64,000 nucleotides of DNA from Micromonospora pattaloongensis (GTDB lineage: Bacteria > Actinomycetota > Actinomycetes > Mycobacteriales > Micromonosporaceae), in the NCBI RefSeq assembly GCF_900107255.1, contig NZ_FNPH01000001.1, positions 496,001 through 560,000 on the forward strand. The letters run 5' to 3'. Positions 20,972 through 24,856 of the stretch are shown here, one piece after another (the stretch's first letter is position 1; every line of letters begins with the position of its first letter). Both the position numbers and the translations under genes were made by a program. The notes under the pieces are model-generated. The model saw nothing but the letters and a program-made list of their open reading frames with translations, was not told the origin of the DNA and searched no databases.

Positions 20972-22288
20972 TTACTTGGCGTCCGCCGCCAGGGTCACCG
21001 AGCTCCGCTGCACCGCGCTCCCCCGCCGGTACTCCACCGTCACCACCGCACCGGGCGGATATTTCCGAACCAGCGCGATGAGATCGGTCGCCTCGGCCAG
21101 CGGACGTCCGTCGATCTTGAGCACCACGTCCCCGGCCCGCAGACCCCCGCCGGCCGCAGGACCGCCCGCCGTGACGGCGGAGAGCCGTACGCCGGATCCG
21201 GAGGCGCGACCGGCGTCGGTCACCTGGGCCCCGATCACCGTGCGCCGGGCCTTGCCGGTGTCGATGATGTCCCGGGTGACGCGCTTGGCCTGGTTGATCG
21301 GGATCGCGAACGCCAGCCCGATGTTGCCGGCCTGCTGCTCGTCGACGGCGAGCGACTTGATCACCGAGTTGACCCCGACGACCCGTCCGGCCGCGTCCAC
21401 CAGCGGCCCGCCGGAGTTGCCCTGGTTGACCGCGGCATCGGTCTGGATCGCGGCGTAGTAGCGGACCTGACCGCCGGGCTCGCCGGCCTGGATGGTCCGG
21501 TCGAGGGCGCTGACGATCCCGGCCGTGACCGTGTTGGCCAGCGCCAGCGGCGAACCGAAGGCCAGCACCGGATCACCGACGGCGATCGCGTCCGAATCGC
21601 CGAACTCGACCGGGACGAGCCCACCACGGCTGACCTTGATCACCGCGAGGTCGGACTCCGGATCCTTGCCGACCACCTTCGCCGACGCCGTCGAGCCGTC
21701 ACTGAAGACCACGGTCGCGGCACCCGAGCTGCCGGCCGCCTCGACAACGTGGTCGTTCGTGATGACGTAACCGTCGGCGGTGGCCACGAACCCGGAGCCG
21801 ACGCTGGCGCCGACGCCGCCGTTGACTCGGACGGTGACGACGCTGGGCCGTACCCGCTCGGCGACCCCGGCCAATGAGTCGGCCGGGCGCTTGGCCAGCG
21901 CCGGAGGCTCGGCGGCGACCGCGCCGAGCGCGCCGCCGGGCCCGAGCCCGCCGCGCAGCGCGAGCGCGTACCCGAGACCGCCGCCGAGGGCGCCGGCGAG
22001 CAGCGCGGTCACGAGCGCGACGACGAAGACCGGGCCGAGGCGGCGCGGCGACGGCGCGTCCGGGTCGACGACCGGCTCCGGAACGGCGCCCGCGTCGGGC
22101 GGCGGGGTCGACACCACGATCGCGGCCGGCGTGCGCGGGTCGCGCCACGGATCGTTGCGGGCGTCGGACCACCAGGGCGAGGAGCCGGCGCTCGCGCCAC
22201 CACCCGCCGGGGCCGGCGGGCCGCCCGACGGCGGCGGGTACGCCGGCACGGTCCCGTCGGGCTGGCGCCAATTCCAGCCGTCGGTCAC
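20972..22288 (-). CDS. htrA: HtrA/DegP-like membrane-anchored S1C serine protease with PDZ domain
   Basis: A 438-residue protease. A Pro/Gly-rich cytoplasmic N-terminus (1-84) leads to one transmembrane helix (about 86-110). The trypsin-like domain has His180 (NDHVVE), Asp213 (ESDLAVI) and Ser292 (GNSGGPL), and a PDZ domain fills about 345-430 (AAGGGLRAGDVVLKIDGRP). The active site is outside the membrane and should degrade or refold misfolded envelope proteins. The start is GTG behind GGGAGG. In mycobacteria the same gene sits directly behind sigE and rseA; here neither is present and the O-methyltransferase is divergent. Confidence 0.93.
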   Translation of the reverse strand: MTDGWNWRQPDGTVPAYPPPSGGPPAPAGGGASAGSSPWWSDARNDPWRDPRTPAAIVVSTPPPDAGAVPEPVVDPDAPSPRRLGPVFVVALVTALLAGALGGGLGYALALRGGLGPGGALGAVAAEPPALAKRPADSLAGVAERVRPSVVTVRVNGGVGASVGSGFVATADGYVITNDHVVEAAGSSGAATVVFSDGSTASAKVVGKDPESDLAVIKVSRGGLVPVEFGDSDAIAVGDPVLAFGSPLALANTVTAGIVSALDRTIQAGEPGGQVRYYAAIQTDAAVNQGNSGGPLVDAAGRVVGVNSVIKSLAVDEQQAGNIGLAFAIPINQAKRVTRDIIDTGKARRTVIGAQVTDAGRASGSGVRLSAVTAGGPAAGGGLRAGDVVLKIDGRPLAEATDLIALVRKYPPGAVVTVEYRRGSAVQRSSVTLAADAK

Positions 22289-22589
22289 GTCTGCTGCCTC
22301 CCAGTCCGTCCCCTGCAGCGCCGTGCGGAGCGGGTCCGACGACGGCGCTGGCGCTTCCAGGATCGCACGGATAATCGAAGAGCATTCAGCGGTTGTCCAA
22401 GGCGTGGTCGCGGGTGACGTTTCGTGGATCCGCCGCCGGGAGAAGGCGAGGCGGGACCGGTTCGGATGACCGGCTCCGGAAATCGATCAACAATGGGCGT
22501 TTGCGGCCGATGTCACGGCTGCCGGTACGCCCGCCTCACCTCTACGCTCATACCGGAAACCGCCGCCCCGACCCCGCTGGAGGTGCACC
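22289..22589. other. Divergent promoter region without a gene
   Basis: About 300 bp between htrA and the O-methyltransferase gene. It holds a plausible housekeeping promoter for htrA and, right of centre, an open but start-less frame continuous with the methyltransferase. This is the place where sigE and rseA stand in mycobacteria; no remnant of either is visible. Confidence 0.5.
22371..22400 (-). promoter_or_regulatory. Candidate housekeeping promoter of htrA
   Basis: On the minus strand TTGGAC (22400-22395) and GATTAT (22376-22371), separated by 18 bp, resemble -35 and -10 boxes. They lie about 83 bp before the htrA start. The call rests on sequence similarity only. Confidence 0.4.
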
Positions 22590-23246
22590 ATCGGCACCGT
22601 CGCCAGATCCGCCGTCAGCCCGACGACCGCGCAGACACTCCACTTCGCGGAGACGTACGTCGCCGAGGACATCGTCCTGCAGACCGCGCGCGGGCTCGCC
22701 CGGGAGTTCGGCCTGGAGGCCGTCACGCCGGGCGCGGGTTCGACGCTGCGGCTGCTCGCCGCCGCCGGCAGCGCACGGGCGGTCGTGGAGATCGGCACGG
22801 GCACCGGCGTGAGCGGGGTGTGGCTGCTGCGCGGCATGCGCGAGGACGGGGTTCTGACGACGATCGACGTGGAGAACGAGCACCAACGTATCGCCCGGCG
22901 CATCTTCGTCGAGGCCGGATTCGCGCCGTCGCGCACCCGGATCATCACCGGCCGCGCCCTCGACGTGCTGCCCCGGCTCGCCGACGGCGCGTACGACATG
23001 GTCTTCGTCGACGCCGACAACGCCGAATACGGCGCCTGCGTGGACGCCGCGCGGCGGCTGCTGCGTCCCGGCGGGGTGCTCGCGCTCAGCGGCGCGCTGG
23101 CCGGCGGGCGGATCGCGGATCCGGCCGCGCGCGACGTCGACACGGTGACCGTCCGCGAGGTGATCAAGGCGGTGCGGGAGTCGGACGAGTGGGTGCCGGC
23201 GCTGCTGCCCTCCGGCGACGGGCTGCTCGTCGCGGTCAGGAAGTAG
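22590..23246 (+). CDS. SAM-dependent O-methyltransferase with an apparent ATC start codon
   Basis: A 218-residue class I methyltransferase like mycobacterial Rv1220c, which neighbours sigE/htrA. The glycine-rich SAM motif is VVEIGTGTGVSGVWLL (from residue 66), then LTTIDVENEHQ, IITGRALDVLPRLADGAYD and MVFVDADNAEYG. No ATG, GTG or TTG exists in this frame between the stop at 22467 and codon 66 (a GTG inside the SAM motif strand), yet residues 1-65 (HFAETYVAEDIVLQTARGL, EAVTPGAGSTLRLLAA) clearly align with the conserved N-terminus of the family. A perfect GGAGGTG site sits six bases before ATC at 22590, so ATC is the likely start. The substrate is unknown. Its end overlaps pepA by 11 bp. Confidence 0.82.
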   Translation: MGTVARSAVSPTTAQTLHFAETYVAEDIVLQTARGLAREFGLEAVTPGAGSTLRLLAAAGSARAVVEIGTGTGVSGVWLLRGMREDGVLTTIDVENEHQRIARRIFVEAGFAPSRTRIITGRALDVLPRLADGAYDMVFVDADNAEYGACVDAARRLLRPGGVLALSGALAGGRIADPAARDVDTVTVREVIKAVRESDEWVPALLPSGDGLLVAVRK

Positions 23247-24720
23247 CCGGCGGCACGAGCGTCGGCAGCCAGCGCAGCAGCGTGCGCACGCCCCAGCCGG
23301 TGGCGCCGCGGGTGAGTTCCCCGTCGTTGCCGTCCGCCCAGGACGGCGCGGACATGTCCACGTGCACCCACCGGTCGCGCAGCTCGCCCGTGAACTCCCG
23401 CAGGTACAGCGCCGCGGTCACCGAGCCCGCGCCCCGGTCCGGCGCGCTGTACAGGTCGGCGAGTTCGCTGCCGAGGTACTCCACGTAGTCGGCGGGCAGC
23501 GGCATCCGCCAGGCCGACTCGCCCGCCGCCGCGCCGGCCGCGAGCACCGCCCGCGCCAACTCGTCGTTGTCGCTGTACAGCGCCGCGGTGCGCTTGCCGA
23601 GCGCGACCGCGTTCGCGCCGGTGAGCGTCGCGAGGTCGATCAGGAGGTCGGGCGCGAGCCGCTGCACCGCGTAGCCGAGCGCGTCGGCGAGCACGAGTCG
23701 CCCCTCGGCGTCGGAGTTGGTGGTTTCGCTGGTGACCCCGGTGTAGTGCCGGATCACGTCGCCGGGACGGAACGCGGAGCCGCTCACCATGTTCTCGGCG
23801 AGCGGCGCGAGCGCGGTCACCCGTACGGGCAGCCGCAGCGCGGCGGCGCCGATGGTGGCCGCGACGACGGCGGCGGCGCCGCCCATGTCCTTGCGCATCA
23901 GCTTCATCGCGTCGCGCGGCTTGATCGAGATGCCGCCGGTGTCGAAGGTGATGCCCTTGCCGACCAGCACCACGTGCGGGGTGGCGTCGGTGGCGCCCTC
24001 CGGCCGCCAGGCCAGCTCGACCAACCGGGGCCCGTGTGCCGATCCGCCGCCGACGGCGAGGATCCCCCCGAAGCCCTCCGCGGCGAGTTGGGCCGGCTCG
24101 CGGACGCCGACGGTGAGCCCGGGATGCTCGGCGGCGGCCGCGGAGACCCGGTCGGCGAACCACGCGGGGCTCTTCAGCGAGGAGGGGGTGTTGGTGAGGT
24201 CGCGGGCGAGCCGGGTGGCCCGGGCGGTGGCCCGCGCGTCCGCCAGCGCCACCTCGTACGGGGCGGTGTCGGAGACCGCCACCAGCACCTCGCCCCCGTC
24301 GATCGGGTCCGGCTCGACGCCCGGCATCCGGTACCGGTACGACGCCAGCCACAGCCCCTCGGCGAGCCCGCGCACGGCCTCGGCGGGGGCATCGGCGGGC
24401 ATCGCTATCGTGATCGAAGTCTCACCACCGCGACACCCCGCGAGGGCGGCGCCGGCGGCCCGCCACCCGGCCTCGTCGCCCGCGCCGATCCCGACCAGCA
24501 GCAGCCGGGACGGGGTGCGCAGAGGGCGGGGCAGCGCCTGCACGGCGCCGGGCGCGCCGGGGCGCTCGGTCGCGCGGGCCAGCGCGCCCGCCTCGGCGAA
24601 CGCGTCGTCGGGCGCCCGCAGCGCGGTGACCGCCGGGACCGGCGGGTCGGCGTCGGTGCCGACCGGCAGCACCAGGGTGCCGGGCATGGCCGGATCCACC
24701 ACGAGACGGATGGCGAGCAC
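23236..24720 (-). CDS. pepA: Leucyl aminopeptidase (M17 family)
   Basis: A 494-residue cytosolic metallo-aminopeptidase. The N-terminal domain is variable; the catalytic domain has VLVGKGITFDTGGISIKP (metal and catalytic Lys), KDMGGAAAVVA, and NSDAEGRLVLADAL, the M17 signature with Ser for the usual Thr. It removes N-terminal Leu and other residues using two metal ions. Length is normal. The start is GTG behind GGGAGGT; a longer frame exists but begins in the intergenic region. It converges on the O-methyltransferase gene with an 11-bp overlap of coding ends. It is transcribed alone or behind the DUF3117 gene. Confidence 0.93.
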   Translation of the reverse strand: MLAIRLVVDPAMPGTLVLPVGTDADPPVPAVTALRAPDDAFAEAGALARATERPGAPGAVQALPRPLRTPSRLLLVGIGAGDEAGWRAAGAALAGCRGGETSITIAMPADAPAEAVRGLAEGLWLASYRYRMPGVEPDPIDGGEVLVAVSDTAPYEVALADARATARATRLARDLTNTPSSLKSPAWFADRVSAAAAEHPGLTVGVREPAQLAAEGFGGILAVGGGSAHGPRLVELAWRPEGATDATPHVVLVGKGITFDTGGISIKPRDAMKLMRKDMGGAAAVVAATIGAAALRLPVRVTALAPLAENMVSGSAFRPGDVIRHYTGVTSETTNSDAEGRLVLADALGYAVQRLAPDLLIDLATLTGANAVALGKRTAALYSDNDELARAVLAAGAAAGESAWRMPLPADYVEYLGSELADLYSAPDRGAGSVTAALYLREFTGELRDRWVHVDMSAPSWADGNDGELTRGATGWGVRTLLRWLPTLVPPATS

Positions 24721-24856
24721 CGACGCACCTCCCGGAGATCTTCGGCGTTTCCGGCACCATAGCCGGCCCGCCGGCACGGCATCTGCCGTACCGGCGGGCC
24801 GGTCACACCCTCGTACGGCCCCGCCCGCGCAGCGCAGCGACGGACCGCACCAGCTC

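Follow-up and report, generated by a model that had tools for sequence, protein, structure and literature searches.

A probable AUC start codon, conserved behind a strong Shine-Dalgarno site, in an actinobacterial O-methyltransferase gene

To our knowledge, few chromosomal genes start at AUU, AUC or AUA. One of these is infC, which begins at AUU in Escherichia coli and, according to the available part of one report, at AUA in Staphylococcus aureus (PMC13009471). The same partial text describes AUU and AUA starts with extended Shine-Dalgarno (SD) sites in S. aureus that give about 10% of the expression obtained with AUG and, for one gene, up to 30% in rich medium (PMC13009471). In E. coli, raised levels of IF3 are inhibitory to initiation at non-canonical codons, to leaderless mRNAs and to SD-less re-initiation, as stated in the accessible portion of a second source (PMC2268962). 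ATC starts are described as rare in the available sections of a third (PMC5622118).

The window analysed here is the whole 64,000-nucleotide stretch of Micromonospora pattaloongensis contig NZ_FNPH01000001.1. A forward-strand reading frame closed upstream by TGA (22467-22469) is open from 22470 to 23246, and zero ATG, GTG or TTG codons occur in frame between that stop and an ATC preceded by a GGAGGTG site (Table 1). The earliest such codon is a GTG at codon 66, counted from ATC, as the initial annotation had recognized. That annotation also placed GGAGGTG six bases before ATC; the distance holds for the GGAGG core (22579-22583), whereas only 4 nt separate the end of the full motif from the codon. 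Like infC, the gene has an AUN start behind a strong SD. We infer from comparison of sequences that it very probably does begin at AUC 22590.

Table 1. Features of the O-methyltransferase locus, in positions of the window
Feature	Position	Strand	Basis and remarks
ATC start codon	22590..22592	+	In frame; ATC/ATT at the SD-selected position in 148/260 orthologues; ATG there in Asanoa
Shine-Dalgarno GGAGGTG	22579..22585	+	Sequence; strong conservation in 147 aligned AUC/AUU loci
Probable -10 box TACGCT	22543..22548	+	41 nt before ATC; sequence, Asanoa and TANNNT boxes of relatives; putative promoter activity
GTG, codon 66, earliest conventional in-frame start	22785..22787	+	Use would truncate the fold
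O-methyltransferase gene, PF01596, Rv1220c-like	22590..23246	+	218 codons from ATC plus stop; profile, structure
HtrA-type trypsin/PDZ protease, divergent neighbour	20972..22288	-	PF13365, PF13180
M17 cytosol aminopeptidase, convergent neighbour	23236..24777	-	PF00883; negative control for the start-codon procedure

The predicted protein is a SAM-dependent, COMT-like O-methyltransferase. It scores 81.8 bits on the PF01596 (Methyltransf_3) profile, for which Pfam sets a cut-off of 22; matches to NCBIfam profiles above their cut-offs were zero. An AlphaFold2 model built with 59 orthologues has a mean pLDDT of 94.7, with only residues 1-6 below 50, and includes confident helices at 11-21, 28-39 and 47-59. 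The model shares its fold with a solved member of Methyltransf_3, Rv1220c (PDB 5X7F), which is the closest solved structure (TM 0.87/0.96, 50% identity) and aligns from residue 11. Codons 1-65 are conserved among relatives, and the profile match, the modelled helices and the structural alignment bear out the earlier reading of this segment as the conserved N-terminus of the family. The neighbourhood in Mycobacterium tuberculosis is presumably Rv1220c-sigE-htrA.

To survey the start codon, we gathered 268 loci: the window gene, a paralogue (L002), relatives, 80 named genomic loci and 394 genomes sampled across the class (381 with a match at E <= 1e-25), completed to roughly one per genus. The paralogue and 7 near-identical loci were dropped, leaving 260 non-redundant Actinomycetes orthologues, a sample in which Micromonosporaceae and Actinomadura are over-represented. 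We scored the codon that stands in frame 5-7 nt after the best-matching SD, with an SD run of at least 5 bases required. Such an SD was found in frame in 183 of the 260 orthologues, and the codon that it selects is ATC in 138, ATT in 10, ATG in 9, CTG in 6 and some other codon in 20. ATC makes up 3.2%, and ATT 0.7%, of all codons read in frame over the same stretches. As a control, the same procedure was applied to 65 loci of the neighbouring M17 aminopeptidase: 29 of the 65 have an SD of 5 or more bases, and ATC was returned in 1. Five of the six CTG calls (L145, L149, L152, L249, L256) have an ATG with a nearby SD instead. The sixth, L247, may have a true CTG start behind GGAGGTG.

At least one AUC/AUU case occurs in 90 of 183 genus labels and in 28 of 59 family labels (24 coded families; named and coded labels may overlap). 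Where the codon differs, ATG can occupy the same slot: this is the case in L015 and in Asanoa, whose SD and TACGCT box further upstream are unchanged. Conservation among relatives (148 of 260), with ATG at the same slot where the codon has changed, is also the pattern expected of an infC-type start. We inspected by eye 11 homologues belonging to other classes within the phylum; an AUC start was apparent in none, and several have GTG or ATG. Comparison of the codon in close relatives, which the initial annotation had proposed as a check, therefore favours the first of its two options, a natural ATC start. The second, a misread base, is excluded because 148 of the 260 orthologues, which come from independent assemblies, have ATC or ATT behind an SD. 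The conserved AUC start points to deliberately weak or regulated synthesis, not to a sequencing error.

The remaining orthologues indicate that AUC is nonetheless dispensable: judged from their sequences, 103 + 9 of the 260 are without SD plus AUC/AUU, and 26 have an SD followed by ATG, GTG or TTG (9 strong, 17 weaker). Besides these 26 and the 148 with SD plus AUC/AUU, 67 orthologues carry a leaderless signature, 2 have an SD with another codon, and 17 are unresolved. The 67 belong to the 103 orthologues that lack an SD of 5 or more bases with AUC/AUU or a conventional codon, and each has an in-frame ATG or GTG with TANNNT 4-9 nt upstream of it. In those 103, such boxes occur at a rate of 0.417 per ATG/GTG site vs 0.042 for other codons; their distance from the ATG/GTG peaks at 6-9 nt. 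Leaderless mRNAs are expected to show just such a TANNNT box close before ATG or GTG, and most of these loci look leaderless. In the 147 AUC/AUU loci, TANNNT boxes are mostly 30-59 nt upstream of the start. Two Micromonosporaceae loci (L021, L071) have a TAG that closes the frame shortly upstream of the conserved block; the start used there is a GTG accompanied by a leaderless-like box.

We located infC in 35 of 37 genomes and read its start at 30 loci (L269-L298), which belong to Micromonosporaceae and to further families of the same order. The start is ATC in 28 and ATT in 2, in all cases behind a GGAGG-type SD. In the genome that contains the window, infC (L289; G000:C13:16718-17212, minus strand) has an SD-ATC layout that matches that of the methyltransferase. 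We scanned this genome with two patterns, AGGAGGN{5,6}ATC (73 matches; 74 distinct sites analysed, the extra one in flanks, and five inspected by eye) and GGAGGN{2,4}CCATC (44 matches, 44 sites analysed). Only the methyltransferase and infC turn from non-coding to coding at the ATC without a usual start nearby; among the sites of these two SD-ATC patterns, no other ATC-start genes were identified. Two further sites of similar appearance were rejected as ATC starts because of an ATG six codons upstream or at +1. The description of such a start as very rare thus holds genome-wide, for the two patterns scanned, and fails within the methyltransferase family.

Transcription from the TACGCT box would, as the motif suggests, yield a leadered mRNA with a leader of about 35 nt, on which the strong SD would set the weak AUC in the P site. 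Initiator tRNA would read AUC as (f)Met despite the third-position mismatch. By analogy with published work on other genes, IF3 would reject such pairings, and the rate of synthesis would for that reason be low and would fall as IF3 rises, as for infC. Sequence comparison establishes the start position, the SD, their conservation and the likeness to infC. It is likely that the AUC start limits expression of the methyltransferase, and we give control of its synthesis by IF3 an even chance. The family mostly uses one or the other of two modes of initiation that IF3 reportedly disfavours, which fits control by IF3 without proving it. A broader and rather doubtful proposal is that, over a large part of Actinomycetes history, one or the other of two interchangeable routes (SD plus AUC/AUU, or leaderless ATG/GTG) has kept the methyltransferase gene under initiation that IF3 disfavours, and that the methyltransferase and infC may form a small IF3-responsive translational regulon linking ribosome initiation capacity to this enzyme.

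The strongest competing explanation accepts the AUC start as real and holds that it is kept by drift, or as a fixed low level of synthesis, without IF3-dependent regulation. We rate this only slightly below an even chance. A FastTree phylogeny of the 260 sequences shows at least 33 switches between AUC/AUU and any other state, and these, like the 26 orthologues with a conventional codon behind the SD, are in keeping with this explanation. Leaderless starts are, moreover, common in actinobacteria. Against pure drift stand the persistence of AUC/AUU in 24 coded families and the near absence at the slot of ATG, a single base away (9 of 183 SD-selected codons); a fixed low level of synthesis stays plausible.

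Four other readings were rejected. The least improbable, to which we nevertheless attach very little weight, is that a conventional start lies further upstream and that ATC is an ordinary internal isoleucine codon. Of 154 sites with ATC, ATT or CTG behind an SD, 84 do have some in-frame ATG, GTG or TTG over the stretch examined, and in 16 of the 148 AUC/AUU relatives an in-frame ATG or GTG is accompanied by a leaderless-like box. Against this, the window offers no candidate between stop and ATC. Of the 154 sites, 70 lack one throughout the stretch examined, and at 49 the frame is free of them as far as the true upstream stop, which in many Actinomadura loci lies about 10 codons before ATC. Sequence 5' of the SD is also unconserved, and the SD stands directly before ATC. 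In the alignment of 147 AUC/AUU loci, no position from -45 to -11 carries more than 0.45 bit of information; the value rises to as much as 2.0 in the SD, and is 2.0, 2.0 and 1.62 at the A, T and C of the start codon. The ATG of Asanoa in the same slot also argues for initiation there. Finally, group g81 has ATT at the start in all 10 loci read (L240, L265, L266, L426-L430, L433, L434), although ATC is its usual isoleucine codon (ATC 23, ATA 4 and ATT 2 elsewhere in seven additional g81 ORFs). The base preceding the start (22589 in the window) is C with a weighted frequency of 0.91 in the methyltransferase AUC/AUU loci, and in 29 of 30 infC loci.

The other three are highly improbable. A misread base, the true codon being ATG or GTG, is suggested by the rarity of ATC starts noted above and by the single base that separates ATC from ATG, and fails on the 148 orthologues already described. 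Initiation at the GTG of codon 66, with the upstream similarity as a relic, would use the earliest conventional codon; it is not credible because the fold would lose its three predicted N-terminal helices together with a portion of the first strand, and codons 1-65 are kept in relatives. Initiation at the GTG within the SD (22583) followed by a frameshift is open to the window gene, but this GTG is missing in Actinomadura, Cellulomonas and most Actinoplanes-type loci, where ATC is retained.

We recognized no earlier description of an AUC start for this methyltransferase family in the open-licence literature. A start at AUC or AUU, kept over many genera in a family that otherwise tends to be leaderless, would permit a direct test of whether the level of IF3 controls supply of the enzyme. 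Annotation that disallows ATC is expected to make this near-universal actinobacterial protein too short, or to extend it wrongly.

Among known systems, Rv1220c of M. tuberculosis is the closest solved relative of the window protein in both sequence and fold; the Mycobacteriaceae-like loci (family code f8, a name assigned tentatively) differ in that they are without the SD plus AUC start, and several look leaderless. The E. coli gene pcnB (AUU), which enters through a reference list, and the S. aureus genes cvfC1 (AUU) and ccpN (AUA) resemble the methyltransferase gene as genes for products other than the factor that have conserved non-canonical starts, according to the part of the report available (PMC13009471); they differ from it in codon and in phylum. 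In that partial text, conservation of cvfC1 is described among Staphylococci, a narrower range than that of the methyltransferase, and the alternation of AUC/AUU with leaderless starts seen in the methyltransferase family is not mentioned for the S. aureus genes (PMC13009471). The likeness to infC lies in the strong SD and short spacing followed by AUN, conserved over many genera, with ATC or ATT as the infC start in the actinobacteria read here. Two differences set the genes apart: some methyltransferase lineages use ATG or leaderless starts, and infC encodes the autoregulated factor IF3 itself, whereas the window gene encodes a methyltransferase.
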